Of a stretch of 19,861 nucleotides of DNA, positions 1-18,675 are shown in pieces (position 1 is the first letter of the stretch; every line of letters starts with the position of its first letter). Made by a program: the position numbers and the translations under genes. The notes below the pieces were generated by a model, which was not told where the DNA came from, ran no database searches, and was given only the letters and a program-made list of their open reading frames with translations. Origin of the DNA: Sulfurovum sp. (GTDB taxonomy: Bacteria; Campylobacterota; Campylobacteria; Campylobacterales; Sulfurovaceae); contig JALVGO010000276.1 in the NCBI GenBank assembly GCA_027029065.1, positions 1 to 19,861 of the forward strand, written 5' to 3'.

Positions 1-16
1 ACATTAAAAAAGTTAA

Positions 17-44
17 CGGAGTACCAAAGCGGCGAAGCGCTCCG
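17..44 (-). terminator. Possible terminator of tig
   Basis: Just downstream of the tig stop, CGGAG (17-21) and CTCCG (40-44) are complementary, with a second short pairing (AGCG/CGCT) inside the loop. Read on the minus strand, the outer stem is followed by a T-rich run (positions 10 down to 5). The stem is only 5 bp and the U-run is offset by several bases, so it is a weak intrinsic terminator at best. Part of it resembles the repeat element at 4453-4512. Confidence 0.4.
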
Positions 45-52
45 GTATAGAA

Positions 53-1345
53 TTATTTTTCGTCAAGTCCAAGCAGTTTGCCAAAGAGTTTGTCTTCGAT
101 CATTCCCATTTTCACAGCCGGGAGCAGATTGTTCTCCTGATAGTACTTGATCACTGCCTGAGGATCCTGTCCACTCATCAGCGCTTCATAGTAGATTGCC
201 TGTGAAACTTCCTGATCATCCACAGTCACTTCTTTGGCTTTTGCCAGTGCATCAACAATGAAAGTTGCCTTGACAGAGTTTTCAGCCTCTTCTCTCACCT
301 CTTCGCGCAGTGCTTCTACTTTTTCGGGATTCTCTTTGTATTCGTTGAGTTCCTCTTCACTCATCTCTCTTGCTTTGGCATTGATCTTCGCATCGATCTC
401 CTGCTCTACAATATTGTTCGGCAGTGCAAAATCAAATGTTTCAACCAGTGCCTCAACCAGTTTCGGCTTCAGTTCTTCATTATACAGTTTGGAGAGTTTC
501 TCGTTAACTACCTGTTCTTTGAGTCTTGCCTTCAGATCATCAAGTGTCGCTTTCTCATCATTGAGCAGTTTCTGTGCCAGTTCGTCATTCAGTTCGGCAG
601 GTACCTGCTCCTGAATTTCGTGCAGCTTGACTTTGAACATTGCCTCTTTCCCTGCAAGATCTTTCGAACCGTAGTTTTCAGGGAATGTTACAGTGATCTC
701 TTTCTCTTCATCATACTTCATACCGATGATCTGGTCTTCAAATCCCGGAATGAACTGCCCTGATCCAATCTTGAGACTGAACTTTTCCGCTTTTCCGCCC
801 TCAAACGCTTCACCGTCGATAAATCCTTCAAAGTCGATCAGTACGGTATCGCCGTCTCTGACCATACGCTTACGCTTGATCTTCTGAAGGCTTCCCTGCT
901 GCTGTGCAACCTCTTCAAGCTTCGCTTCAACCTCTTCATCGGTCGCTTCAGGTTTTTCAAAAGAGGGGATCGCCTTTTCATAGCCTTCTACATTGACATT
1001 CGGTCTTAGAGAGATTTCAAGCTCTACCTCGATCTTGTCATCCTGCTTATCATATTTTTTGAAGATCGGCTCACCGAGAATATCTGCAGTGTTTACCTCT
1101 GCCTGTGCGATACCTGCATCGACAAGTGCTTTAAGTGCTTCCGACTCGGCATCCTGACGCAGTTTGTCACCATGCAGTTTTTTCACAACATGCGGAGGCA
1201 CTTTCCCTTTTCTAAAGCCGTCCACTTTCATCTGCTTTCCTGCCTCTTTGGCAAGTCTGTCGATATTTCTTTCGATTACACCGTTGTCGATCTCACCGCC
1301 AACAGCTACATTGGCATCATCCATTTTGTTTACTGTAACTTTCAC
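53..1345 (-). CDS. tig: Trigger factor (ribosome-associated chaperone and prolyl isomerase)
   Basis: This 430-aa protein has the usual trigger factor length and architecture. The N-terminal ribosome-binding domain carries the signature GFRKGKVP at about residues 43-50. An FKBP-like PPIase domain follows at about 150-235 (DGDTVLIDFEGFIDG, then SGQFIPGFEDQIIGM), and the rest is the helical chaperone domain. In the known family it docks at the ribosomal exit tunnel and shields nascent chains in the cytoplasm. The start is GTG at 1345-1343 (minus strand), with AAAGGA about six bases upstream. It lies 66 bp downstream of typA on the same strand; the gap holds an AT-rich stretch, so co-transcription is possible but not shown. 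Highly charged C-terminal helices are normal for the family. Identification is firm. Confidence 0.97.
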   Translation of the reverse strand: MKVTVNKMDDANVAVGGEIDNGVIERNIDRLAKEAGKQMKVDGFRKGKVPPHVVKKLHGDKLRQDAESEALKALVDAGIAQAEVNTADILGEPIFKKYDKQDDKIEVELEISLRPNVNVEGYEKAIPSFEKPEATDEEVEAKLEEVAQQQGSLQKIKRKRMVRDGDTVLIDFEGFIDGEAFEGGKAEKFSLKIGSGQFIPGFEDQIIGMKYDEEKEITVTFPENYGSKDLAGKEAMFKVKLHEIQEQVPAELNDELAQKLLNDEKATLDDLKARLKEQVVNEKLSKLYNEELKPKLVEALVETFDFALPNNIVEQEIDAKINAKAREMSEEELNEYKENPEKVEALREEVREEAENSVKATFIVDALAKAKEVTVDDQEVSQAIYYEALMSGQDPQAVIKYYQENNLLPAVKMGMIEDKLFGKLLGLDEK

Positions 1346-1411
1346 TACAATCCTTTACATTATAAATTGCGTGATTTTATCTAAAATTTAATAAAAAAGA
1401 GTAACCAAAAC

Positions 1412-3229
1412 CTATTTGGCGTTCTTCTTGTCACGCTGTACACGTTTTCGCATCGCCGGATCGAGGTGTTTTTTTCTGATACGAATACTCTCAGGAGTCA
1501 CTTCGATAAGCTCATCATCTTCGATCCACTCCATCGCAATCTCCAGAGACATCTCTCTTGGCGGTACCAGTTTAATGGCATCATCCGCACCGGAAGTACG
1601 CATGTTGGTCAGCTGTTTTCCTTTGAGCGGGTTGACTTCAAGGTCTCCCGGACGTGCCGATTCACCGATGACCATACCGTTGTAGACCTTGTCCTGCGGC
1701 TTGATAAAGAGCGTTCCACGCGCCTGAAGGTTGAAGATAGAGAAGGCAACCGCCTCTCCGTCATCCATAGAGATCAGTGCACCCGGTGTTCGGCTTACCA
1801 CTGTACCTGTATAAGGTCTGTACTCCAGGAACGAGTGGTTCATGATCCCCTCCCCTTTGGTATCGGTCAAAAACTCCGAACGGAATCCGATGAGACCTCG
1901 TGCAGGGATCTCGAACTCGATACGCACTGTACCGTCCGGCATCGGGGTAAGGCTTGTCATCTCCGCTTTACGCTTTCCAAGCTTCTCGATGGCAACCCCC
2001 TGAAACTCTTCGGGAACATCGACAACAAGGTGTTCGAACGGCTCCATCTTTACACCGTTTTCCTCTTTGACAACCACTTCGGGACGTGCCAGCAGGAACT
2101 CGAACCCTTCACGTCTCATATTCTCTGCCAAGATACCGATCTGAAGCTCGCCACGACCGGAAACTTTGAAAGAAGCATCTCCCATCGGTTCCATACGCAT
2201 GGCGATGTTGGTCTCCATCTCTTTTTCGAGACGCTCGCGTATCTTGTTGGAAGTCACATGCTTCCCTTCTGTTCCCGCCAAAGGACCGTCATTGACTGAC
2301 ATGATAACCGAGAGGGTCGGCTCTTCAACATGCATCGGATCAAGCGGTACCGGATTGGCAGGATCACAGATGGAGTCCCCAACATCGATATCGGAGAAAC
2401 CTGCAATCGCGACAATATCACCCGCTTCGGCCTCTTCGATCTCGATACGGTCAAGCCCTTTAAATCCGATCAGTTTGCTCACACGCGATTTGCTCTTCTC
2501 ACCGCTCGCTTTGACAAGCATATACTCATCACCCTTTTTGATCTTGCCGTTAAAGATACGGGTGATCCCGATACGTCCGACAAAGTTGTCACTGTCGAGG
2601 GTAAAGACCTGTGCCTGCGTATCATTCTCCGGTGATCCTTCCGGGTACGGTACCTTTTCCAAAATCGCTTCAAAGAGCGGTGTCATATCTTTGTTCTCAT
2701 CTTCAAGGTTCCACTTGGCATACCCGTCACGCGCAGCAGCATAGAGTACCGGGAATTCAAGCTGTTCCTCGTTTGCATCGAGTGCCACAAGCAGGTCAAA
2801 CATCTCGTCAAGCACACGGTCAGGCTCTGCACCGTCTTTGTCGATCTTGTTGATAACCACTACCGGTACGAGTCCAAGCTCAATCGCCTTTTTAAGTACG
2901 AACTTTGTCTGAGGCATAACACCTTCCTGTGCATCAACAAGCATCAGAACGCCGTCGACCATCTTCAGAACACGCTCTACCTCACCACCAAAGTCGGCGT
3001 GACCCGGAGTGTCGATAATATTGATCTTGTGGTCACCGTAGGTGATAGCGGTGTTTTTGGAGAGGATGGTAATCCCTCTTTCTTTTTCGATATCATTGCT
3101 GTCCATGACACGCTCATCCACCTGTTGGTGCGCGGCAAAGGTTCCCGACTGCTGAAGCAGTTCGTCTACGAGTGTGGTCTTGCCGTGGTCGACGTGTGCG
3201 ATAACAGCGATATTTTTGATTTTTTGCAT
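1412..3229 (-). CDS. typA: Ribosome-associated translational GTPase TypA/BipA
   Basis: This 605-aa protein is a translation-factor GTPase of the EF-G/LepA group. It shows G1 AHVDHGKTT (residues 11-19), switch I RGITI (51-55), G3 DTPGH (73-77) and G4 NKID (127-130), then beta-barrel, EF-G III/V-like domains and the BipA-specific C-terminal region containing [14 protein letters not shown]. The length is typical of TypA and it lacks EF-G domain IV, which separates it from FusA. Known family role: GTP-dependent ribosome binding in stress adaptation and ribosome assembly. The ATG start at 3229 is preceded by AGGAA about eight bases away. A sigma70-type -10 lies at 3277-3282 (minus strand) inside the gap to dgt, so it probably has its own promoter even though dgt precedes it on the same strand. 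Confidence 0.97.
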
Positions 3230-3249
3230 GAAAATTCCTATCGTTTCAA

Positions 3250-3261
3250 GGGCATTTGCCC
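3250..3261 (-). other. Short hairpin in the typA leader
   Basis: GGGCA and TGCCC form a perfect 5-bp inverted repeat with a 2-base loop, inside the predicted typA 5' leader and about 20 bases upstream of the start codon. It may stabilise the leader or gate translation. A two-base loop is tight, so the fold could be looser in practice. Confidence 0.35.
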
Positions 3262-3276
3262 CTCTAATTTTCGCGC

Positions 3277-3282
3277 ATTATA
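3277..3282 (-). promoter_or_regulatory. -10 element of the putative typA promoter
   Basis: A perfect TATAAT on the minus strand lies in the 67-bp dgt-typA gap, predicting a transcript start near 3270 and a leader of about 40 nt. No convincing -35 is visible, which is common in Campylobacterota housekeeping promoters. The start site is inferred. Confidence 0.55.
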
Positions 3283-3296
3283 TCGAAAAGTTACTA

Positions 3297-4400
3297 TTAT
3301 AGGGATAATCCGTAAATTTCATGGTAGGTTTTCATCGCATAACGGTCGGTCATAGCAGCAAGATAGTCGGCAATGACCCGGTGCGGGGAACGTACTTCAA
3401 AAAGGGCTTTCTGGTGGGTTGGAAGCAGGTCATGGTCATCGTTGAACGCCCGGTAGAGCCCCTTCATACACTGCTTGCCCGCATACATCTTTCGGGCGAT
3501 CTTCTCATGGGTGTAGAGTGTTTTGAAAAGCCGTTTTTTCAAGCGCTTGAGCTGGGTTGCCGTCTCTTTGGAAAATCCGACCGGAAGCGGTAAATCAGCA
3601 TCAAGTGTCGCTGAAATCGGCTGCTCTTTTCTATACTCCCCTGCTCCGGCTTTGGAGTAGGCGATGAAATCCTCTACCAGCAGTTTGATCATACCGGCGA
3701 CAAAACGGTGGCGGTAGAGCGGTTCCCCCTGCTCTACCCCCTCCTGACGCACCATCACATCGACACGCTGGCACAAAGGCTCCTGAAGCAGATCGTCAAA
3801 CGCTATCAACCCGTATTTGATCCCGTCATCGATATCGTGGGAGGTGTATGCGATCTCGTCGGCATGGTCTACCACCATCGCTTCAAGACTGGGGTGTTTG
3901 TCCAGGGCAAACCGGGCATCGAGATCATTCAGAAACGGTTTGTGGTACGGATAGGAGTGTTTAAGCACCCCTTCAAGGGTCGCAAATGTCAGGTTAAGCC
4001 CGTCAAAGTCTTTGTAGCGTTTTTCCAGTTTGGTCAAGACACGGAAAGACTGAAAGTTGTGTTCAAAGCCAAGCAGATGCCCGTCAGCCTTGAGCAGACG
4101 GTCGAGTTCATCACCGCCCACATGCCCAAAAGGGGTGTGTCCAAGATCATGCGAAAGGGCGATCACCTCGGCAAGCGTTTCATTCAATCCAAGCTGACGC
4201 GAAAGCGTTCTGGCGATCTGACTTACCTCCAGTGAATGGGTCAGACGCGTACGGAAGTAGTCCCCCTCGTGGTTCAGGAAAACCTGTGTCTTGTACTCCA
4301 GTCTGCGAAACGAACTGCAGTGGATCACCCTGTCACGGTCACGGGCATACGGGTCGCGAAAATCATCTTCAAAAGTGTGGAAACGTTCATAGGGTTGCAT
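3297..4400 (-). CDS. dgt: dGTPase-like deoxynucleotide triphosphohydrolase (HD superfamily)
   Basis: This 367-aa cytosolic protein has the Dgt signature: CSSFRRLEYKTQVF near the N-terminus, then H55 (TRLTHSLEVSQIART), H84-D85 (ALSHDLGHTPFGH) and D181 (DHADEIAYTSHDIDDG), the four HD-domain metal ligands. Members hydrolyse dGTP, or dNTPs more broadly, to the nucleoside plus triphosphate and so tune dNTP pools. The ATG at 4400 has a weak AAGGT ribosome site. It diverges from thyX, which makes dTMP, across a 205-bp region filled largely by a hairpin repeat. A TATATT-like -10 on the minus strand at about 4433-4428 abuts that repeat. Substrate range cannot be read from sequence, so dGTPase-like is the safe name. 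Confidence 0.9.
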   Translation of the reverse strand: MQPYERFHTFEDDFRDPYARDRDRVIHCSSFRRLEYKTQVFLNHEGDYFRTRLTHSLEVSQIARTLSRQLGLNETLAEVIALSHDLGHTPFGHVGGDELDRLLKADGHLLGFEHNFQSFRVLTKLEKRYKDFDGLNLTFATLEGVLKHSYPYHKPFLNDLDARFALDKHPSLEAMVVDHADEIAYTSHDIDDGIKYGLIAFDDLLQEPLCQRVDVMVRQEGVEQGEPLYRHRFVAGMIKLLVEDFIAYSKAGAGEYRKEQPISATLDADLPLPVGFSKETATQLKRLKKRLFKTLYTHEKIARKMYAGKQCMKGLYRAFNDDHDLLPTHQKALFEVRSPHRVIADYLAAMTDRYAMKTYHEIYGLSL

Positions 4401-4437
4401 GGATTACCTTAATTCATCCCTCCGAAAAAATATACGA

Positions 4438-4528
4438 TTCGTATTGGTCAGGTGGCGACAAAGGAGCACCAAACCCCTGAAAGGGGCGCTCGCGTTTGCG
4501 ACTGCCAGAGCTGCCTGACCAATACGAA
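4438..4528 (+). repeat. Hairpin repeat element, copy 1 (60-bp conserved core with self-complementary arms)
   Basis: The 15-bp arms TTCGTATTGGTCAGG (4438-4452) and their exact reverse complement (4514-4528) enclose a 60-bp core (4453-4512). The core holds a CCCC-TGAAA-GGGG hairpin and ends in CTGCCAGAGCT. A second core with 54 of 60 identical positions and no gaps lies at 7192-7251 on the other strand, but its arms have a different sequence that is again self-complementary. The element sits between the divergent dgt and thyX genes, upstream of the thyX -10. No ORF or transposase is associated. It could be a small non-autonomous mobile hairpin or a structured RNA; it is not a recognised family to me. 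Confidence 0.8.
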
Positions 4529-4561
4529 GGTTTTTCAGAAGGTTCGATTATTTTATTTTGC

Positions 4562-4567
4562 TATAAT
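4562..4567 (+). promoter_or_regulatory. -10 element of the putative thyX promoter
   Basis: A perfect TATAAT (in TTTTGCTATAATTG) lies 38 bases upstream of the thyX ATG, in a T-rich context and with no clear -35. It predicts a start near 4574 and a leader of about 30 nt. The in-frame TTG at 4567 overlaps this -10 and is therefore unlikely to be the thyX start. Confidence 0.65.
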
Positions 4568-4605
4568 TGTACCCAAAATCCTATAGAAGCAGTCGGAGTA
4601 TCATC

Positions 4606-5445
4606 ATGGAAACCGTTGAAAAATACCATATCACCTACACCAAACCGGAAGTGACCCTCCTGCAGGAGAGCGGTCTGGGCGTTGCCGAGATCGCCGCACG
4701 TACCTGCTACGACAGTTTCGAAAACTCCGAAAACGCGTGCATCAAAGCTGCTCCAAAGCAGCTCGATACCGATGCGATCAATGCCATTGAACGCTCCGAT
4801 CTGCTTGCCAACCTTGCATGGGTGCATCACCACCACTCCATCATTGAACACGCTACGCTCAGCTACCTCATCCGCGGTACCTCCAGAGGGGTATTGCAGG
4901 AGCATGCCCGCCACCGCATTCAGGCAATATCGGTACGCTCTACCCGCTATACGATGTCCTCAGTTATCAATGCGTTTGTCGCTTCGCTTGAAGCAGCAGA
5001 GGGATTTGACTTTTTCCTTGAAAAGCTGCTTGGACTCGATCTTTTTGTCATTGCCGATGAAGCCTACCTTGCCATCGAGATCCGTGCCATCTACGACAAA
5101 CTCCGTTTTCAGTATAAAAGAGATGCCGACTTCATCACCAATGCTGTTGCCAAATCTTCCCTGCCGCTGCTTGAAGCGCACAAAAACAACGCCCAGGCAC
5201 TCTACGAAGCACTGGAGTGCGGCAAAAAAAAGCGCAACGTCGGTGATGCCTTCAAACATATTGTCTCAGACAACTGGAAGGTTGATATGGTCGTTACGTT
5301 CAACATCCGCAGTCTCAAAAACTACTTCGACCTGCGAGACAGTGGTGCAGCATGGTTCCAGATACGCTGGCTTGCCGAAGCGATGAAAACAGTTACCCCT
5401 GTAAAGTATCTGCAGCTGATCGACAAACAGTACAAAACCCTATAA
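4606..5445 (+). CDS. thyX: Flavin-dependent thymidylate synthase ThyX
   Basis: This 279-aa protein carries the ThyX motif RHRX7S (R102 H103 R104 to S112, within ARHRIQAISVRSTRY), the FAD/dUMP-binding signature of the family. ThyX makes dTMP from dUMP with methylenetetrahydrofolate and reduced FAD, independently of ThyA and of dihydrofolate reductase recycling. The ATG at 4606 is chosen because CGGAG lies eight bases upstream and the longer frame would start inside the -10 box. It is somewhat longer than many ThyX proteins, in line with campylobacterial ones. The next gene starts 12 bp after its stop, so the two are probably one transcript. It diverges from dgt, so synthesis and breakdown of DNA precursors are encoded back to back. 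Confidence 0.95.
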   Translation: METVEKYHITYTKPEVTLLQESGLGVAEIAARTCYDSFENSENACIKAAPKQLDTDAINAIERSDLLANLAWVHHHHSIIEHATLSYLIRGTSRGVLQEHARHRIQAISVRSTRYTMSSVINAFVASLEAAEGFDFFLEKLLGLDLFVIADEAYLAIEIRAIYDKLRFQYKRDADFITNAVAKSSLPLLEAHKNNAQALYEALECGKKKRNVGDAFKHIVSDNWKVDMVVTFNIRSLKNYFDLRDSGAAWFQIRWLAEAMKTVTPVKYLQLIDKQYKTL

Positions 5446-5457
5446 GGACAGTCACTT

Positions 5458-7173
5458 TTGCGTACATTAAAACTTTTTCTATTTCTGCTTCTGCTGCAAC
5501 AGACGCTTTGGGCACAGCCCCTGACCATGGAGAGCATTACCGCCGACCTCAAACAGGCGATGCAGACAAAACTCAAAGGCAAAAATGCCCCGATTGTCAA
5601 AGAGATATACAGACTCAACGGCAACACACCGCTCTGGATCGGTGCACAAAACAGAGAAAAAATGAGTGCCCTGATACAGGCACTGGAAGATCCGCTCTAC
5701 AACTACAAACGCAAACCCTTTGATCAGAAATCGATCAAAAAACTGCTCTACTATCTTGACAATAACACCATCCCTGTCGAGAAAAGAGCACCTGTCTATG
5801 CAAGACTCGATCTGCTGCTGACAAACTCCTATGTCAGACTCGTACGTTTCATCGTTCAGGGGGATGTCGACTGGGCACTGGTTCAAAAGAAATTCAAAGC
5901 ACTCAAAGAGAGCAATGACATTCAGGCGACATGGGAGATGCACCAAAAACCCTTCCCTCCTCTCAAACCGATGGCAAATGCTGTCAAAGAGGGAAATATC
6001 AAAAGCTATCTGAATTCACTGATCCCTCTTGAGAGACGCTACCGAAAACTGATTGCCCTGCTCAAAAACCATGAACGTATGGAGAGATTTCCAAAGATCC
6101 CCTACAGCAATACCCCTTTGAAACCGGGAGACTACAGTGCAAGGGTACGTGAGGTTAAAAAACGGCTTCAGATATCAGGAGACTACCCAAAAAGTGCCCC
6201 TATAGACAAACGTTTTGACGAAACACTGCGCCGGGCTGTCATCACCTACCAGAAACGCTATCTGCTGAAAGTGACCGGAGAGGTGGACAAGACCATGACA
6301 TGGTATCTCAACCAGCCTGCGAGCAAAAATATCCAGGCGATCATCACCAACCTTGACAAAACGAAACTCTACCCAAAACATTTTGAAGATGAATATATTG
6401 AAGTAAATGTCCCCGATTTCAATCTGCGCTACTATATTGGCGGAGAGATGGTGATGAAAAAAGGTGTCGTGGTCGGGCGTATCGACAGACCAACCCCTAT
6501 CTTCGATGACAAAATGGAGTATGTGGTCATCAATCCGACATGGACCATTCCCGACAATCTCATCAAACGCGACCTTATTCACGTACTGAGGGAAAATCCA
6601 GACTATCTTACAGAACACAATATTCATGTCTTCAGAGGCAACAAAGAGGTGGAGATCACCCAGGCAGATCTTGATCCTTATGAACAGAGTGAGAAAAAGG
6701 TGCCGTGGCGTTTTGTACAGTTCCCAGGTGACAGCAATGCCCTTGGACGCATCAAGTTTATGTTCCCCAACAAATATGCCGTCTATCTGCACGATACCGA
6801 CAACAAAAGCCTGCTTGACCGCCGATACAAGGTCTACTCCTCAGGATGTATGCGTGTTGAACACCCTTTCGATCTTGCCGATATGGTACTTCGTCACGCA
6901 CGCAGACACTACAGCAGAGAGAAGATTGAAGAGATCATTGCAACGGACAAACCGACCACCATCCGTCTAAGAAAACCCATTCCGGTACACATTGTCTACT
7001 TTACCGTCTATGAAGAGAACGGACTGGCATACTTCAAACACGATATCTATCTTTATGACAAGATCATCGAAGAGTCGACTGCCGGCAACAGAAAAGAGAC
7101 CTTTACCGTACCCAAAAAACGCTTTATTACCATCAAAAAACAGAAAGCAAACCGTAAACCTCTGAGTAATTAA
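5458..7173 (+). CDS. Exported L,D-transpeptidase (YcbB-like, YkuD catalytic domain)
   Basis: The protein has 571 aa. A Sec signal peptide (RTLKLFLFLLLLQQTLWA, probable cleavage before QPL) directs it to the periplasm. A peptidoglycan-binding-like segment lies at about residues 224-290 (SARVREVKKRLQ ... KRYLLKVTGEVD). The YkuD domain follows, with GVVVGRIDRPTP, H445 (LHDTDN) and the catalytic loop SSGCMRVEHP with nucleophile C464. Known members cross-link peptidoglycan 3-3 or anchor proteins, using the Cys-His pair. The domain order and size resemble the YcbB/LdtD group. The start is TTG at 5458, supported by AAGGA overlapping the thyX stop and by the signal peptide beginning at once. Why it is paired with thyX is unclear. 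Its 3' end is followed by repeat copy 2 instead of an ordinary terminator. Confidence 0.9.
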   Translation: MRTLKLFLFLLLLQQTLWAQPLTMESITADLKQAMQTKLKGKNAPIVKEIYRLNGNTPLWIGAQNREKMSALIQALEDPLYNYKRKPFDQKSIKKLLYYLDNNTIPVEKRAPVYARLDLLLTNSYVRLVRFIVQGDVDWALVQKKFKALKESNDIQATWEMHQKPFPPLKPMANAVKEGNIKSYLNSLIPLERRYRKLIALLKNHERMERFPKIPYSNTPLKPGDYSARVREVKKRLQISGDYPKSAPIDKRFDETLRRAVITYQKRYLLKVTGEVDKTMTWYLNQPASKNIQAIITNLDKTKLYPKHFEDEYIEVNVPDFNLRYYIGGEMVMKKGVVVGRIDRPTPIFDDKMEYVVINPTWTIPDNLIKRDLIHVLRENPDYLTEHNIHVFRGNKEVEITQADLDPYEQSEKKVPWRFVQFPGDSNALGRIKFMFPNKYAVYLHDTDNKSLLDRRYKVYSSGCMRVEHPFDLADMVLRHARRHYSREKIEEIIATDKPTTIRLRKPIPVHIVYFTVYEENGLAYFKHDIYLYDKIIEESTAGNRKETFTVPKKRFITIKKQKANRKPLSN

Positions 7174-7178
7174 GTTCC

Positions 7179-7263
7179 GGTTTCACTCAATAGCTCTGGC
7201 AGTCGTGAACGCAAGCGCCCCTTTCAGGGGTTGGGCACTCCTTTGTCGCCATCGAGTGAAACC
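7179..7263 (-). repeat. Hairpin repeat element, copy 2 (opposite orientation)
   Basis: The perfect 10-bp arms GGTTTCACTC (7179-7188) and GAGTGAAACC (7254-7263) enclose the core at 7192-7251. Reversed and complemented, the core matches copy 1 at 54 of 60 positions without gaps. The arms share no sequence with those of copy 1. Read in core orientation, three further pairs (one G-U) extend the stem into the core. It lies between the convergent ends of the L,D-transpeptidase gene and ruvC and may also serve as a bidirectional transcription barrier, although no U-run follows either arm. Confidence 0.8.
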
Positions 7264-7284
7264 TCCATTAATAATGATGTAAAG

Positions 7285-7764
7285 TTATCCCTTTCTCATT
7301 TTCACACGCTGCAGGTGGGTCAGGGCAATCGCCATCGCATCGGTAATATCGAGCGGTTTGATCTCCTTTTTGATCTTCAAAAGCCTTTTAACCATAAAAG
7401 CCACCTGTTCCTTTGCCGCCTTGCCGTTCCCCGTTACCGCTTTTTTCACCTGAAGCGGGGTGTATTCGTAAAAATACCCAATCTCCTGCAAAATCTTCAA
7501 AGAGAGCGCTCCGCGAAACTGTGCCAGCTTCAGTACCGTTTTGGGATTGTAGGCGTAGAAGATATCTTCAATAGCCACCTCATCCACCGTATGGGACTTT
7601 AAAATCACATCTATCCCCTCCACAAGCTCTACGATCTGCTCCTGAAGCTCTTTGGTTTTGATCTTAAGCAAACCGGCTTCTACCAGTGAAACACTTTTCC
7701 CGTCCCAATGGAGAATACAATAGCCGAGATTACGGCTTCCGGGGTCTATTCCTAAAATATTCAT
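7285..7764 (-). CDS. ruvC: Holliday junction resolvase RuvC
   Basis: This 159-aa protein has the RuvC RNase H-like fold markers: D7 in [15 protein letters not shown]66 in [14 protein letters not shown], and D139/D142 in [15 protein letters not shown], corresponding to the four catalytic acids of E. coli RuvC. It cuts Holliday junctions symmetrically together with RuvAB. The ATG at 7764 is preceded by AAAGGTG on the minus strand. The start codon and ribosome site lie within the DnaA-box cluster, so DnaA binding could affect ruvC expression (inference). It diverges from dnaA. Confidence 0.95.
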
Positions 7765-7859
7765 TCACACCTTTGTTCACATAGTGAATAAAAAAGTTCA
7801 CTATCTCTTAGTAGCCGTATTTTAGCTTAACTTGGCTAAAATTGCACAAGTTATTCACA
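7761..7859. other. oriC: Upstream oriC module: cluster of DnaA boxes
   Basis: Boxes of the campylobacterial TTATTCACA/TCATTCACA type are TCATTCACA (7761-7769), TTGTTCACA (7773-7781), the complement of TTATTCACT (7783-7791), AAGTTCACT (7794-7802) and TTATTCACA (7851-7859). Two of them form an 8-bp inverted repeat (7781-7788 with 7797-7804). A box cluster next to dnaA is the classic bacterial origin signature. Box affinity is inferred from similarity to the H. pylori consensus. Confidence 0.75.
7819..7842. promoter_or_regulatory. Symmetric divergent -10 elements between ruvC and dnaA
   Basis: ATTTTAGC (7819-7826) and GCTAAAAT (7835-7842) form an 8-bp inverted repeat with an 8-base spacer. Each arm ends in TAAAAT reading outward, a plausible -10 for dnaA (plus strand, 7837-7842) and for ruvC (minus strand, 7824-7819). 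The predicted dnaA start, near 7849, would fall at the edge of the DnaA box at 7851-7859, which would suit autorepression. Start sites are inferred. Confidence 0.4.
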
Positions 7860-7909
7860 TTATGTTTTATGCCTGTAAATATATGTGAAAATCTTAACCG
7901 GGGCTGTGT

Positions 7910-9241
7910 ATGAACATCGGACAGAAAGTACTTTTCGAACTGAAAAAAGAGATCTCCCAGACAGAATATGAACGCTATATCAAAAAACTGGTCTACGATA
8001 CCAAAAACTCCCGAAGCAATATCGCCTACTTCAATGCCCCCAATATGCTTGTGGCAAAATGGGTCAAAACAAAGTATGCCGACAAAATAGCCCACCTGTT
8101 CGAACTTCAAAATGAGGTCAAACCAAAAATAGAGATACGCGTAGGAAAGGTAAAAAATACTCCGGTAGCGGCAGCACCGAAAGTGACTGCGGAAAAGAGC
8201 CATACAAAAAGTACCCACCTCAACCCCTCTTTGACCTTTGAAAGTTTTATTGTCGGTGACTCCAACCAGTTTGCCTACACTACTGCCAAATCAGTCGCCG
8301 AAAAACCGGGAAAACAGTACAATCCCCTCTTTATCTATGGCGGTGTCGGGCTTGGAAAGACACACCTCCTTCAGGCCATTGGAAACTACCGCATCGAGAT
8401 GGGAGATACCGTTATCTATACCACACTCGAGCAGTTCATGAACTCATTCACTTCACACCTGCGTTCACAGACCATGGACCGCTTCAGAGACAAGTTCAGG
8501 GAGTGTGACCTTCTTTTGATAGACGATATCCAGTTTCTCAGCAGAAAAGAGCAGACACAGGAGGAGTTTTTTCACACCTTCAACGAACTGCACAATGCCA
8601 ACAAACAGATCGTCATGACAGCCGACAGACCTCCCAAAAAGATCGCCGGACTGGTAGACAGACTGCGTACCCGCTTTGAGTGGGGACTCATGGCAGACAT
8701 CCAGCCTCCGGGTCTTGAAACCAAAATCGCCATCATCCAGAAAAAATGCGAACTTGACGGTATCCGTCTCGATCAGGAGATCATCCAGTTCATCGCAACC
8801 CATATGGGAGACAATATCCGTGAGATCGAAAGTGCCCTCATCCGTCTCAATGCCATGAGTTCCATGCTCAATCAGGAGATTACCCTCGATTTTGCACAAA
8901 ACGCCATCAAAGACCAGCTCAAAGAGAAAAAAGAGCACATTACCATCGATGATATCGTCAAGATCGTCTCAAGAGAACTCAATGTCAAACCCAGCGATAT
9001 CAAATCGAAAAAGCGTACCAAAAACGTGGTCAATGCAAGACGCACAGCCATCTATCTTGCCAGAAACCTCACACCAAACTCCATGCCTCAGATTGCACTC
9101 TATTTTGGCATGAAAGACCATACGGCAATCTCCCATGCCATGAAAAAGATCAATGAGATCATCGAAAATGACGAAAATTTCAAAGTGCTGCTTGAAGAGC
9201 TCTCAAACAAAATTCATACCGATACCCAACAAAGTGAATAA
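7910..9241 (+). CDS. dnaA: Chromosomal replication initiator DnaA
   Basis: This 443-aa protein has all four DnaA domains. Domain I is at about residues 1-80 and a short linker runs to about 105. The AAA+ domain III carries Walker A GGVGLGKT (144-151), Walker B LLIDDIQFLS, and the arginine-rich GLVDRLRTRFEWG segment. The C-terminal domain IV holds the signature DHTAISHAMKKI that reads DnaA boxes. It binds ATP and origin boxes and melts the DNA to load the helicase. Start: ATG at 7910, with only a weak purine-rich ribosome site (GGGG) before it. The final codons overlap a DnaA box (9233-9241), so the downstream origin module begins inside the gene. A terminator follows at 9341-9369. Confidence 0.98.
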   Translation: MNIGQKVLFELKKEISQTEYERYIKKLVYDTKNSRSNIAYFNAPNMLVAKWVKTKYADKIAHLFELQNEVKPKIEIRVGKVKNTPVAAAPKVTAEKSHTKSTHLNPSLTFESFIVGDSNQFAYTTAKSVAEKPGKQYNPLFIYGGVGLGKTHLLQAIGNYRIEMGDTVIYTTLEQFMNSFTSHLRSQTMDRFRDKFRECDLLLIDDIQFLSRKEQTQEEFFHTFNELHNANKQIVMTADRPPKKIAGLVDRLRTRFEWGLMADIQPPGLETKIAIIQKKCELDGIRLDQEIIQFIATHMGDNIREIESALIRLNAMSSMLNQEITLDFAQNAIKDQLKEKKEHITIDDIVKIVSRELNVKPSDIKSKKRTKNVVNARRTAIYLARNLTPNSMPQIALYFGMKDHTAISHAMKKINEIIENDENFKVLLEELSNKIHTDTQQSE

Positions 9242-9373
9242 AGCAAAAGGAGTACCACTAAAAACTTGAATAAAAAAAAGATATAATTATACAAGTGAAT
9301 AAAGGTGAACTTCCCAGGAAGTATCAAAACGGTAGAAATCACGTTCCAAAGGGCATTGGAGCGTTTTTTCACA
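9233..9373. other. oriC: Downstream oriC module between dnaA and dnaN
   Basis: Box-like sequences are the complement of TTATTCACT (9233-9241, repeated exactly at 9294-9302), of TTATTCAAG (9265-9273) and of AAGTTCACC (9304-9312), plus TTTTTCACA (9365-9373). The last is followed by a trio-like track and an AT-rich stretch up to the dnaN ribosome site. A perfect small inverted repeat, ACTTCC-CA-GGAAGT, lies at 9309-9322. Together with the upstream cluster this gives the bipartite layout known from H. pylori, in which the second module holds the unwinding site. Confidence 0.65.
9341..9369 (+). terminator. Intrinsic terminator of dnaA
   Basis: ACGTTCCAA (9341-9349) pairs with TTGGAGCGT (9356-9364) over nine positions including one G-T wobble, with the loop AGGGCA, followed at once by a T run (9364-9369). 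This is a standard Rho-independent layout, implying that dnaN is read mainly from its own promoter. Confidence 0.7.
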
Positions 9374-9386
9374 TTTTCATGCCAAA

Positions 9387-9404
9387 CTACTGCTAGATAC
9401 TAAT
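9387..9404 (+). other. DnaA-trio-like track / likely unwinding edge
   Basis: CTACTGCTAGATACTAAT, 13 bases after the TTTTTCACA box, resembles the repeated trinucleotides (CTA/CTN, i.e. complementary TAG/NAG) of bacterial DnaA-trios, which guide DnaA onto single strands. AT-rich DNA follows (9401-9416). The match is by eye and imperfect. Confidence 0.45.
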
Positions 9405-9427
9405 TTTATAAAAAATAAGGAGAGTCA

Positions 9428-10495
9428 ATGAAGATCAGAGCACAAAAACAGATTATCGAATCGATACTTATCAATCTGCAGCCGTTTCTCGAAAAGAAAG
9501 ATGCCAGTCAGATCACTTCCCATATTCTTTTTCAATCCCAGGGAGAGAAGTGTATCATCAAAGCAACGGACAATGAAATCGGTCTTAGTATTACAACAGA
9601 CCATATACTGATTGAATCGGAAGGAAGCTTTACTGCAAACGGAAAAAAACTTCTCGATATCATCCGCATTCTCAAAGATGATGAGATCGTACTCGAACTG
9701 CTTAACGATACACTGATTATCAAACAGAAACATTCCAAATTCAAACTGCCCGTTTTCGACCCTTCCGGATATCCACTCTTCCCAAATTCCGAAGACAAAC
9801 CAAAAATTTCACTGGACTCTCTAAGCCTTATTCAAAACCTTAAAAAAATATCACCTGCTATTGACACCAACAATCCGAAATTTGAACTTAACGGTGCTTT
9901 GATCAATATCAAAACGGATGCTACAGATCTGGTAGGTACCGATACACGCAGACTTGCCATTGCTACCATTCCCGGATCCAACACTGAAGCACTTTCTCTG
10001 ATCGTTCCCAAAAAAGCGATTCTTGAAATCCAGAAACTCTTCCTTGACCAGATCGATATCTATTTTGATGAAACCAATCTTATTATTGCCAATGAGAACT
10101 ACTTCTTCTTTACACGGCTTATCAACGGGAAATTCCCTGACTATCAGAGAATCATCCCCTCAAGTGTCAAACACAGTGTTACGCTTCCTAAAAAAGAGAT
10201 GGTGGATGCGATCAAAATGATCACAACCATTTCACAGGAGATCAAAATGACACTTTTGAGTGATGTTATCATCTTCAATTCACTCAGTGCAGACAATGTC
10301 GAAGCAAAAACAGAGATAGAACTCTCTACAGGACTCTCTGAAAAATTTGAAATCTCTTTCAACAGCAGATATATTCTCGATTTTATCTCTCAGATTGAAA
10401 AAAATGAATTCCTTATGGAATTTAACGAATCTACATTGCCATTTATCGTCAAAGACGAAAATTTTATCACGATCATTATGCCGATCGTGGCATAG
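9428..10495 (+). CDS. dnaN: DNA polymerase III beta subunit (sliding clamp)
   Basis: This 355-aa protein has the length of the campylobacterial beta clamp. Recognisable clamp features are the opening MKIRAQKQIIESILINLQPFLEKKD, the central TDATDLVGTDTRRLAIA and the C-terminal end FIVKDENFITIIMPIVA, close to the family's usual MP(V/M)R-type ending. Three repeated clamp folds are expected. The dimeric ring tethers polymerase III and binds many clamp-interacting proteins. ATG at 9428 with AAGGAG (9417-9422) upstream. It is followed 25 bp later by pyrG, not by gyrB or recF as often seen. Identification is firm. Confidence 0.95.
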   Translation: MKIRAQKQIIESILINLQPFLEKKDASQITSHILFQSQGEKCIIKATDNEIGLSITTDHILIESEGSFTANGKKLLDIIRILKDDEIVLELLNDTLIIKQKHSKFKLPVFDPSGYPLFPNSEDKPKISLDSLSLIQNLKKISPAIDTNNPKFELNGALINIKTDATDLVGTDTRRLAIATIPGSNTEALSLIVPKKAILEIQKLFLDQIDIYFDETNLIIANENYFFFTRLINGKFPDYQRIIPSSVKHSVTLPKKEMVDAIKMITTISQEIKMTLLSDVIIFNSLSADNVEAKTEIELSTGLSEKFEISFNSRYILDFISQIEKNEFLMEFNESTLPFIVKDENFITIIMPIVA

Positions 10496-10520
10496 TTCAT
10501 AAAAAGAGGACAGTATAACA

Positions 10521-12155
10521 ATGAATGAAAGCATGACAAAATATATTTTTGTTACAGGAGGGGTACTCAGTTCCCTCGGAAAAGGTATTACCGCTGCAAG
10601 TATCGGTACACTGCTTAAACATACGGGAGAGAGGGTAGGTGTCTTGAAACTCGACCCCTATATCAATGTCGACCCTGGAACCATGTCACCCCTTGAACAT
10701 GGGGAGGTTTTTGTTACCAAAGACGGCGCGGAAACTGACCTTGACCTTGGACACTATGAACGGTTTCTCGATACATCCCTGACACAAAACAACAACTTTA
10801 CAACCGGGCAGGTCTATAAAACTGTTATTGAAAACGAAAGAAAAGGGAAGTATCTTGGCAAGACCATTCAGGTCGTACCGCATATTGTCAACGAGATCAA
10901 AGAACGTATTGTCCGTGCAGGTGAGGGCAAGGATATTCTGATTGTAGAGCTTGGCGGTACAACAGGTGATATCGAAGGACTGCCGTTTCTTGAAACCATT
11001 CGTCAAATGAAACATGAACTTGGCAAAAACAGGGTAATGAATGTGCATGTCACACTGCTGCCCTATATTAAAGCTGCGGGTGAGTTGAAAACCAAACCGA
11101 CACAGCACTCTGTACAGGAGCTTCGCCGTATCGGTATTGCACCGCATATGCTGGTACTGCGTGCAGAAGTGCCTGTCAGCAGCGAGATAAAACGAAAGAT
11201 CGCCTACAGCTGTGATGTGGATGAAGAGTCTGTCATTGTTGCAGAAGATGCCGCGACCATCTATCAGGTACCGCTCAATTTCCTAAGACAGGATATTTTG
11301 ACACCTATCTGCAAACAGCTTGAACTGGAAGATTGTCAGCCAAAGATGGATGAGTGGACCGATCTGGTTCACAAGATCATTATGCCTCAGGATGAAGTCA
11401 AAATTGCATTTGTCGGAAAGTACCTTGATCTCAAAGAGTCCTACAAGTCGCTGACAGAAGCGCTGGTACATGCCGGTGCCCATCTTGACAGCCGTGTGAA
11501 CATTAAATGGGTCGATTCGGAAAAAGTAGAGGAAGAGGGGGCTGCAAAGTTCCTGAATGATGTGGACGGTGTACTGGTTGCCGGCGGTTTCGGTGAACGT
11601 GGGGTAGAGGGAAAAATTCTCTCTATCCAGTATGCAAGAGAGAACAACATCCCATTCCTTGGTATCTGTTTGGGTATGCAGCTGAGCATGGTTGAGTTTG
11701 CCAGAAATGTTCTGGGACTTAAAGAGGCGAACTCTGTTGAGTTCAATGAAAATACCCCTGATCCTATCATCTACCTGATCGATGAGTTTATCGATGCCAG
11801 CGGTTCAAGACAGGTGCGTACAATGACATCACCGATGGGTGGTACACTTAGACTGGGCGAGTATGAGTGTGAAACGAAAGAGGACTCCAACCTTAGAAAA
11901 GCCTATGACTCCAGTGTCATTTATGAAAGACACAGACACCGCTATGAGGCAAATCCTGCGTACCGTGAGCAGTTTGAAGCCAAGGGTATGGAGATTACAG
12001 GAGAGTCTCACGGACTGATAGAAGCAGTAGAGGTCAAAGACCATCCGTGGTTCCTCGGTGTACAGTTCCACCCTGAGTTTACTTCTCGTCTGCAAAACCC
12101 AAACCCTGCCATTTTGGCATTTGTCAAAGCAGCGGCAGCTTCCAAAAATGATTGA
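10521..12155 (+). CDS. pyrG: CTP synthase (glutamine-hydrolysing)
   Basis: This 544-aa cytosolic enzyme makes CTP from UTP, ATP and glutamine. The N-terminal amidoligase domain opens with [17 protein letters not shown] and contains [39 protein letters not shown]. The C-terminal class I glutamine amidotransferase domain has C383 (GICLGMQ) with H517 and E519 (QFHPEF). Length is typical. ATG at 10521 has GAGGA ten bases upstream; an internal ATG at 10533 (MTKYIF) is closer to the usual family start and remains possible. The gene overlaps recJ by 8 nt and sits 25 bp after dnaN, suggesting a dnaN-pyrG-recJ transcript. Confidence 0.96.
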
Positions 12156-13734
12156 ATATCTAACGCTTGAGGCGTTAGAAAATTTTCTTCAGGAGCGCTT
12201 TAAAGAGGGATTCCTCTCCCTCAAAGACCTGCCTCATCCCTCGACATTCAAAGATATGGATATCGCAACAGAGCGTATTGTCCATGCTCTCAAAAACCGT
12301 GAAAAGATCACAGTGGTCGGTGACTATGATGTTGACGGTGTTACTGCGACAACACTCATGAAGCTCTTTTTTAATGAAATAGACTATCCGGTAAGATGGA
12401 TTATCCCCAACCGTTTTAAAGACGGTTACGGACTCTCTTCCTCCATTGTTCCGCGTCTTGAGGGAACCGATCTTGCTATCACGGTCGATAACGGTATTGC
12501 AGCGGTGGATGCTGCGCAGATGTGTAAAGAAAAAGGTATCGACCTCATCATTACCGATCACCATCTGCTTCCCCCAGAACTGCCTGAAGCCTATGCGATC
12601 ATTGACCAAAAACAGCCTGAATGTACCTTTCCCTACGAAGAGGTCTGTGGTGCGCAGATTGCATGGTATCTGATCGCTTCGCTGAAAAATGCACTGGGGA
12701 TCAAAATAGATATGATGCCCTATATGGAACTTGCAGCAATTGCTATCATTGCCGATATGATGCCGCTTCGGCATATTAACCGTGCGATGGTCATTGCCGG
12801 ACTGCAATCGCTTTCCAAAAGCAGTAGACCTGCTGTCAGAGCCTACAGGGAATATACCCAAAAAGAGCATCTGACTGCCGAGGATATAGGCTTTTTTCTC
12901 GCTCCCCTGCTCAACAGTGCAGGGCGGATGGAAGATGCCTCCTATGCCGTTGAGTTTCTCACTTCCAAAAACATCTACGATGCCAGAGTACGTCTGCAGC
13001 GTCTGGTGGATTTCAATGAACAACGCAAAGAGACGGAGGCATCTATCACCAAAGAGGCACTCTCCTGTGCCGATGATACTTCTGTGACAGTTGTCAGCGG
13101 AGTCTCTTGGCATGAAGGGGTAGTGGGGATTGTCGCAGCACGGGTTGCACGTGTACGCAAACGACCCTGTATTGTACTGAGTGACAACGGTAACGGTACG
13201 CTTAAAGGAAGCGGCAGAAGTTTTGGCAATGTTGATCTTTTCGCTTTGGTTGACAAAACCCGTCCCCTGCTTGAAAAGTTTGGCGGTCATGCCGCTGCGG
13301 TGGGATTGAGCCTTTCCAAAGAGAATCTTGCAGTTTTTAAAGAAGAACTTGATGTTTTGGGAAGGGTAGCATGTGAAAAGAGTGGTGAATTTACCGATGA
13401 GGAGATTGTAGGTGAACTTCACTTTCGTGATATCAGCTTTGCATTGACGGCACTGCTTAAAAGATTTGAACCCTATGGACAGGGCAATCCAGTACCAAAA
13501 TTTATAACCAGAGGGGTACGCATACAGGCAGTATCGAGGATGGGAAAAGAGGGAAACCATCTGCGGTTTGTGTTTGAACAGGAGGGTATTACCCAACAGG
13601 GGGTGCAGTTTAAGACAGATGAAGTGTATCTGCCTGGTACTTTTGTAGATATTGTCTATACTGTCAATGAAAACACCTTTAGAGGCAATACCACATTACA
13701 GCTTTTGGTAGAAGAGATCATAACTGTGGTATAA
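12148..13734 (+). CDS. recJ: Single-stranded-DNA exonuclease RecJ
   Basis: This 528-aa protein belongs to the DHH phosphoesterase family. Motif I is VVGDYDVDG (56-64), motif II is TVDNG (112-116), the DHH triad is D137-H138-H139 in IITDHH, and the DHHA1 motif GGHAAAVG begins at G379. An OB-like C-terminal region follows. RecJ degrades single strands 5' to 3' in recombination and mismatch repair, using Mn2+ or Mg2+. The start at ATG 12148 is chosen because it opens with [10 protein letters not shown] in a typical position and its ATGATTGA overlap with the pyrG stop implies translational coupling; an upstream in-frame start (12058) would lie deep inside pyrG. A perfect hairpin falls in codons 4-11. 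Confidence 0.93.
12159..12179 (+). other. Hairpin at the pyrG-recJ junction
   Basis: TCTAACGC and GCGTTAGA form a perfect 8-bp stem with loop TTGAG, starting 3 bases after the pyrG stop and lying within the first recJ codons. AAATTTTCTT follows, so it looks like a weak terminator embedded in coding sequence. It could set how much recJ is made relative to pyrG. Confidence 0.5.
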
Positions 13735-13739
13735 AATTT

Positions 13740-13759
13740 GGATTTTTTTAAAAAAATCC
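13740..13759. terminator. Palindromic terminator after recJ
   Basis: GGATTTTTTT followed directly by AAAAAAATCC is a perfect 20-bp palindrome six bases after the recJ stop, with further A/T-rich sequence downstream. It probably ends the dnaN-pyrG-recJ transcript and separates it from the sulfide block. Confidence 0.55.
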
Positions 13760-13802
13760 TTATTTATTACAGAAAAATAGATGACTTTTATCATCTTTGC
13801 AG

Positions 13803-13823
13803 TATTATTATTTGTTAACAAAT
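13803..13823 (+). promoter_or_regulatory. Putative promoter and operator of the sqr-like gene
   Basis: TATTAT (13803-13808) is a plausible -10. The perfect 14-bp palindrome ATTTGTTAACAAAT (13810-13823) would cover the predicted start site and ends 5 bases before the ribosome site AAGGAG (13828-13833). A palindrome in this position looks like a repressor operator; no specific regulator can be named. A further 5- to 6-bp inverted repeat (GATGA/TCATC) lies at 13780-13795. Confidence 0.45.
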
Positions 13824-13838
13824 GTATAAGGAGATGTT

Positions 13839-15320: not shown

Positions 15321-15538
15321 TGCATCTTTTTAGAGAGGCAAAGATTTTTTTTATTCTTTTCCTCTTTTTATCAATTGCCATGCATTTTAATGCATGGATA
15401 AACTATCCCATAAAACATATCATTAACATATCCAGTAGTTCACTGGGAGTATGGCACCCTTTTGTAATCACCTTTATTGTCTATATATGTATAGGTGCAG
15501 GAAGAGGTTTGATATATTTATGGAAAAAGTTAAATTAA
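15320..15538 (+). CDS. Small two-helix membrane protein coupled to the SQR-like gene
   Basis: This 72-aa protein of no family I recognise starts at an ATG that overlaps the SQR-like stop by one base (TAATG), with GAGAGG about nine bases upstream, so translation is probably coupled. Two hydrophobic helices are visible (IFFILFLFLSIAMHFNAW and HPFVITFIVYICIGAGRGLIYLW), joined by a short polar loop; the ends are positively charged. It may anchor the exported flavoprotein at the inner membrane or support quinone access; this is inference from position only. A longer reading frame starting at 15290 would lie within the upstream gene and is less likely. Confidence 0.75.
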   Translation: MHLFREAKIFFILFLFLSIAMHFNAWINYPIKHIINISSSSLGVWHPFVITFIVYICIGAGRGLIYLWKKLN

Positions 15539-15567
15539 AATAATATTACGTGAAAAAGGAAAAAATA

Positions 15568-16950: not shown

Positions 16951-16971
16951 GAAAAAATAAATATACAATTT

Positions 16972-17000
16972 GTTAGACTTATATTTATTATAAGTCTGAC
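16972..17000 (+). terminator. Hairpin terminator after the outer-membrane protein gene
   Basis: GTTAGACTTATA (16972-16983) and TATAAGTCTGAC (16989-17000) pair over 12 positions with one T-G wobble and the loop TTTAT. It lies 21 bases after the stop. There is no T run behind it, so it may mainly stabilise the mRNA 3' end or act as a partial terminator. Confidence 0.5.
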
Positions 17001-17026
17001 TTCACAATGGGTTCACGATTTATATA

Positions 17027-17032
17027 TATAAT
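17027..17032 (+). promoter_or_regulatory. -10 element before the small cysteine protein gene
   Basis: TATAAT at the end of a TA-repeat lies 29 bases before the ATG at 17062, predicting a start near 17039. No good -35 is seen. Two TTCACRAT octamers, 11 bases apart (17001 and 17012), sit just upstream. Confidence 0.5.
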
Positions 17033-17061
17033 TTGGAACATTAAAACAAAAAGGATAAAAA

Positions 17062-17391
17062 ATGAAAAAAAGTACAACATTGGCATTGGCAGCACTACTC
17101 GGATTGACGTTAGTAACAACAACAGCAACTGCTGATTCGGCTAAAGGTAAAAGAGTTTACCAGAAATTCATGAAAGACGATTGTGGTAAAACAGGTGGTG
17201 TAGTTGCAGGTAAACATACACAAAAAGAGTGGAAAAAGCTTACAGGTGATGCTTTTAAAGCTGAACTTGAAAAAATTTGTCCAAACACAAAAGCATTTTT
17301 GAATAGTGCAAAATTCAAAAAACTTGAAAATCACCTTCATGACTTTATGTATGAATTTGGTAAAGGTAGTGGTAACATCCCCGCTTGCTAA
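17062..17391 (+). CDS. Small periplasmic three-cysteine protein without a heme motif
   Basis: This 109-aa protein has a Sec signal (KKSTTLALAALLGLTLVTTTATA, cleavage probably before DSAKG). The mature part is lysine-rich, with single cysteines at 41, 73 and 109 (the last residue) and histidines at 52, 91 and 93. It begins like a small c-type cytochrome (AKGKRVYQKFMKDDCG) but has no CXXCH, so covalent heme attachment is not supported. Similar campylobacterial proteins with HTQKEW and GNIPAC-like motifs are, as far as I recall, often labelled cytochrome c. ATG 17062 with AAAGGA upstream; own promoter likely. It may act in periplasmic redox or sulfur handling; the function is unknown. Confidence 0.7.
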   Translation: MKKSTTLALAALLGLTLVTTTATADSAKGKRVYQKFMKDDCGKTGGVVAGKHTQKEWKKLTGDAFKAELEKICPNTKAFLNSAKFKKLENHLHDFMYEFGKGSGNIPAC

Positions 17392-17402
17392 ATCTCATTA
17401 AG

Positions 17403-17422
17403 GAGAGCTTTTAAAAGCTCTC
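17403..17422. terminator. Bidirectional palindromic terminator
   Basis: GAGAGCTTTT followed by AAAAGCTCTC is a perfect 20-bp palindrome between the convergent ends of the small cysteine protein gene and the HI0933-type gene. No T run follows directly on either side. An eight-C homopolymer follows at 17441-17448. Confidence 0.55.
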
Positions 17423-17460
17423 TATACATGCTTTACTCTTCCCCCCCCATTATATTATTA

Positions 17461-18663: not shown

Positions 18664-18675
18664 ATGCCAACCCTT

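Follow-up and report, generated by a model that had tools for sequence, protein, structure and literature searches.

A hairpin pair in a Sulfurovum contig and its probable place in a family of MITE-like elements with a folded cargo

How could two hairpins on one bacterial contig keep nearly the same core while their arms differ, and still have each arm pair with its partner? This question is raised by a stretch of 19,861 nucleotides from Sulfurovum sp. (assembly GCA_027029065.1, contig JALVGO010000276.1, positions 1 to 19,861 of the forward strand; hereafter the window), where the cores of copy 1 (4453-4512, + strand) and copy 2 (7192-7251, - strand) are identical at 54 of 60 positions without gaps. 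This agreement in opposite orientation had been pointed out in an earlier note on the same DNA, and was obtained again both by recount and by a repeat finder, whose longest listed inverted repeat in the window is this 60-nt, 90% pair; the mismatches fall at core positions 15, 16, 19, 39, 45, and 46. The self-complementary arms are likewise as the note had them: 15 bp in copy 1 (4438-4452 with 4514-4528, leaving a single unpaired base at 4513) and 10 bp in copy 2 (GGTTTCACTC; 7179-7188 with 7254-7263), to which a few more pairs are added toward the core.

The answer that we favor, with a probability of roughly 0.7, is that both copies are non-autonomous elements of Sulfurovum and its relatives, bacteria of the sea floor that oxidize sulfur, and that they are similar to miniature inverted-repeat transposable elements (MITEs), which would carry a folded hairpin under selection as their cargo and depend on a transposase supplied in trans. 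Many members of the family are recognizable as units of about 131 bp with imperfect terminal inverted repeats (consensus GARCCCTCTGAAWAA) and 4-bp target duplications, and the cargo has a predicted fold composed of a paired stem of varying letters (P1), a near-constant internal loop (GCGACAA/GCCAGAG), a second varying stem (P2), and, at the tip, either small hairpins or a module of about 80 nt. The surprising parts are the broad covariation and the chassis that is shared with another cargo. Copy 1, by its letters, is a full unit directly upstream of the predicted thyX promoter, and copy 2, located between the L,D-transpeptidase gene (ldt) and ruvC, is probably older and has lost its clear outer ends. 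The features are the following (genomes are numbered G, loci L).

4411..4414, no strand: left flanking 4-mer AATT, putative target duplication; three of four bases match GATT at 4546-4549 (CATT/GATT in L015)
4415..4545, + (sense): full 131-bp unit of copy 1 (terminal repeat, arm, core, arm, terminal repeat); architecture common to other units, segment absent in L002
4415..4430, +: left outer terminal repeat CATCCCTCCGAAAAAA, with 3 mismatches to the consensus GARYCCTCTGAAWAH
4438..4452, +: 5′ arm of P1, pairing with 4514-4528; P1 covaries in the family
4455..4461, +: 5′ side of the internal loop, GCGACAA, near-constant although both adjoining helices vary
4462..4468, +: 5′ strand of P2, AGGAGCA, forming a tandem G.A with 4497-4503 (tandem G.A in 55 of 68 copies)
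4474..4486, +: P3 hairpin CCCC-TGAAA-GGGG, read from the sequence and present in the predicted fold of copy 1
4487..4494, +: P4 hairpin, in whose place long copies of other genomes have the module of about 80 nt
4497..4503, +: 3′ strand of P2, TGCGACT, partner of 4462-4468
4504..4510, +: 3′ side of the internal loop, GCCAGAG, near-constant (GCCGGAG, GCAGGAG, and similar in diverged copies)
4514..4528, +: 3′ arm of P1, pairing with 4438-4452; P1 covaries in the family
4530..4545, -: right outer terminal repeat GAACCTTCTGAAAAAC (read on the - strand), with 1 mismatch to the consensus
4546..4549, no strand: right flanking 4-mer GATT, putative target duplication; the empty site in L002 also reads GATT
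7178..7264, - (sense): copy 2, arms and core, 103.1 bits with the covariance model R1; no clear outer repeats found
7192..7251, -: core of copy 2, 54 of 60 positions identical to copy 1

Dispersal, ends, and empty sites

A search with the core gave matches in all of the first 10 genomes, five of which had been selected for a locus in which a copy was already present. A covariance model built from arms and core (R1) matched the window at these two places only, the next match elsewhere having an E value of 0.39, and it found the further copies that the earlier note had expected: at E ≤ 0.01 it matches 33 of the 78 genomes of the genus of G002, with 1-28 places in each, and there is no match in the other 45. 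Of 397 genomes sampled evenly across the phylum, with 11 or fewer candidates scored per genome, at least 8 match at E ≤ 0.001. An occurrence so patchy, with so many copies per genome, suggests that the repeat is mobile. The G+C content of 37 matches to arms and core spans 37-62%; A+T-richness is usual in MITEs but no requirement. Outside these genomes, DNA searches of plasmid and phage collections gave no match and six short matches of 20-27 bases, one pattern scan of viral contigs gave nothing, and no description of this core was found in a search of open-access papers.

The limits of the unit became apparent when a copy of G009 with its flanks (L108) was used as a BLAST query, in that seven places in G008, G009, and G315 end exactly at query positions 561 and 698, and further places come within a few bases of them. 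These ends form imperfect inverted repeats and, in the 30 of 116 copies in which both were recognized, stand at a near-fixed distance from the core. Beyond them, the flanking 4-mers are identical in 25 of 52 units bounded by terminal repeats, where shuffling yields 6.7 (at most 14 in 2000 shuffles), and for flank lengths of 2, 3, and 5-10 the duplication is near chance; the 52 units are the 53 found minus one of unclear cargo, and some five of them are spurious second pairings of one copy. A rerun with 54 units gave 27 equal flanking 4-mers, 14 of them not self-complementary, and because no non-self-complementary pair is an inverted copy, the flanking 4-mers are direct repeats and not parts of longer inverted repeats. 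The duplication is of the type AATT/TATT/GATT; a duplication of TA (TA in 9/30 left and 12/30 right flanks) had also been considered and was dropped in favor of 4 bp. Short dispersed units, terminal inverted repeats, and a direct 4-bp target duplication are the traits of MITEs, and it is for this size, these ends, the duplication, and the dispersal that the elements are filed as MITE-like, their source transposase being putative. In the consensus, the left end can be read as containing a promoter and the right end a terminator-like run of T, but neither is constant (in L205, L218, and L224 of G315 the left end reads AAAAA), and this reading is a guess.

The comparison of orthologous empty sites, which the earlier note had proposed, found such sites for three copies: for copy 1 in L002, which is without the whole unit and has GATT at that spot, for L108 in G008, and for L111 in G004. 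In addition, L015 carries the copy 1 unit between CATT and GATT. One point of the earlier description needs correcting: what is repeated extends beyond the arms and in copy 1 covers approximately 4415-4545. Copy 2 sits between the 3′ ends of ldt, which in the window has matches of up to 95% to Sulfurovum records, and ruvC, and the letters CTCAGAGG that adjoin it are part of the conserved end of ldt. As the gap between the aligned ends of the two genes is only 6-16 nt in the relatives L001-L004, and is 103 nt without the core in L005 and 25 nt in L019, copy 2 is most simply explained as an insertion too.

Two minor observations belong to this region. In the gap of L019 a short sequence (CGGTTTCATTAACC) stands in place of copy 2, and this may be the scar of a hairpin deletion. 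Copy 2 also stands upstream of a dnaA-like gene that starts at 7910, about 650 bp away (window 7264-7910), with a dnaN-like gene behind it (both names read from window translations); the replication origin may be near.

Covariation of the fold

When 68 short copies were aligned, RNAalifold gave one long hairpin of 22 pairs, 18 of which have compensated double changes. In a named structure of 21 pairs on this alignment (A1), 98.2% of the cells are paired, compared with 82.6% in shuffles, and two-sided changes occur in 169 cells, compared with 25, with 17 of the 21 pairs showing them. A1 was derived from 243 motif pairs, of which 113 had some arm pairing and 83 were strong (67 short and 16 long), copy 2 being added to the short ones; as its copies were chosen for paired arms, the figure of 98% leans upward. 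A second set, picked by the letters of the core alone, is free of the arm filter: among its 115 matches all 12 arm positions are paired in 101, 11 in 12, 10 in one, and seven in one (L033, read as a chance match within a gene). When right arms were exchanged for those of copies with a clearly different left arm, 12/12 was reached in only 5 of 575 draws. Thus the multi-copy alignment that the earlier note had called for bears out its claim that structure is conserved above sequence: the arms covary, and the core changes respect pairing, including the double change from CA/TG to TG/CA at core positions 15-16 and 45-46, which is confirmed and belongs to a helix with covariation across the family.

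The variation is unevenly distributed along the hairpin. Arms are near-perfect, often differ between copies by several bases together, and vary widely even within single genomes (G010, G006), and in diverged copies the letters of P2 are quite different and yet paired, whereas both strands of the loop stay near-constant (a helix reading in which the 3′ loop of window copy 1 was misplaced and L189 and L223 were misread). In P2 the tandem G.A is present in 55 of the 68 short copies, two standard pairs replace it in 10, and three have neither. A canonical kink-turn was also considered, and the letters give no clean fit.

A further argument comes from copies that are found at the same place and in the same orientation in different genomes: between batE and batD (L182, L186, L187, L188, L192), between a comEA-like gene and gltX (L185, L190, L193), between a response regulator and an exporter (L191, L194), and between two hsp20 genes (L211, L217), these names being read from translations and L188 being placed by its flanks. 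Here the arms differ between genomes and pairing is kept, L186 and L187 having the same arms; the arms would therefore change in place, which, given the same place and orientation, is simpler than repeated replacement. In some genomes, copies without recognizable terminal repeats have stayed at fixed intergenic sites, some of them between the genes of operons, and this suggests that the host has taken over some copies. The folded shape is kept while the arm letters change, and it is thus suggested that the folded strand itself does something.

As to which strand this is, the two can be told apart by their wobble pairs, since wherever one strand has G-U, the other has a mismatched A-C. Among 64 distinct arm pairs, collected with no arm filter, G-U occurs 26 times and A-C five times, and for this reason one strand is probably the folded one, the favored strand being + for copy 1 and - for copy 2. 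On that sense strand both copies fold better than shuffled sequence (-43.9 kcal/mol, z-score -5.1, for copy 1; -30.9 kcal/mol, z-score -3.4, for copy 2), and folding energy favors the sense RNA over the other strand in 55 of 68 short copies. Both this asymmetry and the tandem G.A, as read in the letters, would fit RNA and single-stranded DNA alike.

Second cargo and modules

G008, G009, and G315 also have units with these ends and this spacing whose interior is unrelated and contains two palindromes like those of repetitive extragenic palindromic (REP) sequences, and the pair GTCATTCCGG...CCGGAATCC of this second cargo resembles a CGTC-type REP dimer. The commonest length is 131 bp for both cargos (18 core units and nine REP units). 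Exact 4-bp duplications flank 11 of the 14 REP units in the range 130-132 bp; for core units in the range 125-132 bp the figure is 13 of 28. These REP units, with ends of the type of copy 1, are as follows.

G008, G009, and G315, 130-132 bp: L247, L248, L249, L250, L251, L254, L255, L256, L259, L260, L261, L262, L263, L264

The tip of the hairpin is exchangeable too: in 16 aligned long copies that of P4 is replaced by the module of about 80 nt, which has compensated pairs of its own, and L089/L184 and L191/L194 contain a match to this module (75-76%) that is separate from the core. The core copies of G139 have different flanking repeats, while the ends of the core in G311 and G004 resemble, by eye, the terminal repeats of the present units. 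A separate tip module, other flanks around the core, and a second cargo together indicate that ends, core, and tip module are partly independent modules.

Beside these, tandem arrays of units of about 75-80 nt stand downstream of ldt in L037 and L042 and are, by eye, like the tip module of the long copies (the unit of L037 reads ..GCTCC..CCGGTTTCG..hairpin..TAACGGGTC). Two shortened units, L252 (54 bp) and L265 (70 bp), have kept both ends; the former keeps arm letters, and the latter has another small hairpin.

Competing explanations and known repeats

If we accept a MITE-like origin, the history of an element would have comprised: (i) the action of a transposase, supplied in trans, on the terminal repeats, creating the 4-bp duplication; (ii) selection that keeps the cargo, one strand of which would fold when single-stranded, most likely as RNA; (iii) and finally, the presentation by the folded strand of its constant internal loop to a partner molecule, for which the helices would serve as scaffold. 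A more specific and rather doubtful version is that the core is a portable functional RNA, whose loop would be bound by a cellular or transposition protein, and which the chassis of terminal repeats would have spread, swapping it with CGTC-type REP dimers of the same length, some copies having become fixed as RNA elements of operons.

Several observations weigh against a MITE-like origin with a selected fold. With regard to mobility, 27 of the 52 units are without an exact 4-bp match, some five of these 27 being the spurious second pairings; the flanks of copy 1 (AATT and GATT) agree at only three of four bases; the relatives with empty sites have about 90% identity or less, and the duplication is not cleanly visible in them; and terminal repeats are not recognizable by eye in G139, G010, G006, and the copies at fixed sites. 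No transposase with these ends was found in a search that covered the DDE_Tnp_1 and Y1 families in mostly draft assemblies: no long-spaced pair of the ends was seen among the matches to a terminal-repeat pattern in nine genomes, as judged by eye, DDE_Tnp_1 is absent from six of the nine, including G008, G009, and G315, and among six genomes Y1 is absent from G008, G009, and G001, the first two of which hold many copies. With regard to the fold, the strictest set, with loci taken from protein or core BLAST and not from the model, has only 13 G-U against 4 A-C (p = 0.049); an earlier count of 33 against 8, in 70 distinct arm pairs, came from a filter that accepted G-U and punished A-C; long copies show no sense-strand energy preference (8/16 each way); and exchanged right arms still reach at least 10/12 in 159 of 575 draws, because the arm letters are partly shared. 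There is likewise no clear orientation bias to neighboring genes: by a simple open reading frame (ORF) rule, 38 of 83 copies lie cleanly between two ORFs, 14 of them antisense to both, nine convergent, eight divergent, and seven sense to both. A strand preference within operons was considered and rejected (14 against 7, p = 0.19).

The alternative that survives best, though we regard it as unlikely, is that the hairpin is used as single-stranded DNA, one folded strand being read by a Y1/HUH-type enzyme or a tyrosine recombinase with the loop as its recognition site. The strand asymmetry and the tandem G.A would suit this use as well as they suit RNA, and Y1 transposases are present in three of the six genomes searched; a 4-bp target duplication, however, is not expected of Y1 elements, and G008, G009, and G001 have no Y1 genes despite their many copies. 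REP repeats mobilized by REP-associated tyrosine transposases have a tag by the palindrome and a Y1 gene in the genomes with the repeat, a combination that was not found here: alignment A1 has no constant GTAG or CGTC tag beside the hairpin, and only the other cargo resembles CGTC repeats. As a separate observation, G139, whose core copies have other flanking repeats, contains seven Y1 transposase genes of equal score and two weaker ones.

Complementary arms could also arise with no selection at all, since in quasipalindrome correction one arm becomes the template for the other when replication switches templates, and arms that are near-perfect and often differ by several bases together are what such a process would leave. 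It is nonetheless improbable here, even more so than a use as single-stranded DNA, because it predicts equal numbers of G-U and A-C, where 26 and 5 were seen (though 13 and 4 in the strictest set), and because internal loop and tandem G.A, lying between perfect helices, should also disappear under it, yet they persist in nearly all aligned copies.

The earlier note had proposed either a mobile hairpin or a structured RNA family; the element appears to be both mobile and structured, and what finds no support is the proposed source of the arms, namely insertion into, or formation inside, palindromes such as terminators. Such a small hairpin, taking its arms from the target, would account for arms that differ so widely between copies, also within G010 and G006, and REP dimers are reported to insert within palindromes in other bacteria (PMC3733652). 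It is very unlikely all the same, given that arms vary in place, still paired, at orthologous sites, that they lie inside the terminal repeats of the duplicated unit, and that by eye no palindrome of these arms exists at the site of copy 1 in L001-L005; nesting does occur at the tip, where the module of about 80 nt takes the place of P4. Finally, a multi-copy cis-acting leader or riboswitch, a reading suggested by the conserved internal loop and the variable helix that closes it, is hardly credible and already contradicted by placement, as the copies have all orientations to neighboring genes, copy 2 lies between two 3′ ends, copy 1 is upstream of the -10 of thyX (TATAAT at 4562), for which the earlier note had rightly doubted a thyX leader, and Rfam 15 gave no match at the gathering score for the whole window and nine loci. 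At a permissive threshold Rfam returned only two miRNA models, which we take to be plant-type, and one Dictyostelium model, all far below the cut-off.

Many bacterial MITEs are described as folding, and the present units share size, terminal repeats, target duplication, and intergenic position with Correia/NEMIS, ERIC, and CIR, for which folded transcripts are reported and, in the case of CIR, a phylogenetically conserved RNA structure; most such MITEs have TA termini, in contrast to the 4-bp duplication of AATT/TATT/GATT type found here, for which no source insertion sequence was found (PMC2229807, PMC10969869). The BOX and RUP repeats of Streptococcus pneumoniae also have terminal repeats and target duplications; BOX, RUP, and SPRITE are short, dispersed, and predicted to form RNA stem-loops, are taken for parasitic elements in the abstract, and BOX is modular in that its boxB part can be absent or multiple (PMC3049150). 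By description, and not by sequence, our elements are like BOX, folded and modular, with a tip module of about 80 nt that may be absent as boxB may; they differ from what is described of the three in their hosts, in having helices that covary around a near-constant loop, and in the unrelated second cargo that is found between identical ends. Yersinia YPAL/RU-2, which is not A+T-rich, likewise has internal inverted repeats and a mobility inferred from empty sites, but it has duplications of 3-26 bp and targets that span or adjoin dyad symmetry (PMC2229807). Covarying repeats have a bacterial precedent on Borrelia plasmids, where compensatory changes preserve the stem-loop pairing of structured intergenic repeats; these have another sequence and host, and what was reported there includes neither the transposon ends nor the target duplication found here (PMC2674063).

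CGTC repeats, of which Sulfurovum sp. NBC37-1 is a named carrier, seem to have no transposase dedicated to them, and the REP dimers of H. neapolitanus lie in palindromes GAAAaACC...GGTaTTTC (PMC3733652). The second cargo here resembles CGTC dimers, and by eye the letters of the H. neapolitanus palindromes are similar; unlike the repeats described there, the covarying core has no CGTC tag, and the dimers stand within 131-bp units with terminal inverted repeats and 4-bp duplications. The shared 131-bp chassis would show in concrete terms how CGTC-type REP dimers could move, which the same source leaves open (PMC3733652). The advance is therefore one of combination, a mobile chassis with an exchangeable cargo and a constant loop, given that covarying repeats themselves had already been reported (PMC2674063). 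The broad covariation of a mobile repeat, also in place at fixed sites, makes selection on a folded single strand testable. In the attC sites of integrons it is the conserved ends that are recognized by the integron integrase; in the present hairpins, by comparison with that general description, the ends vary and the middle is constant.

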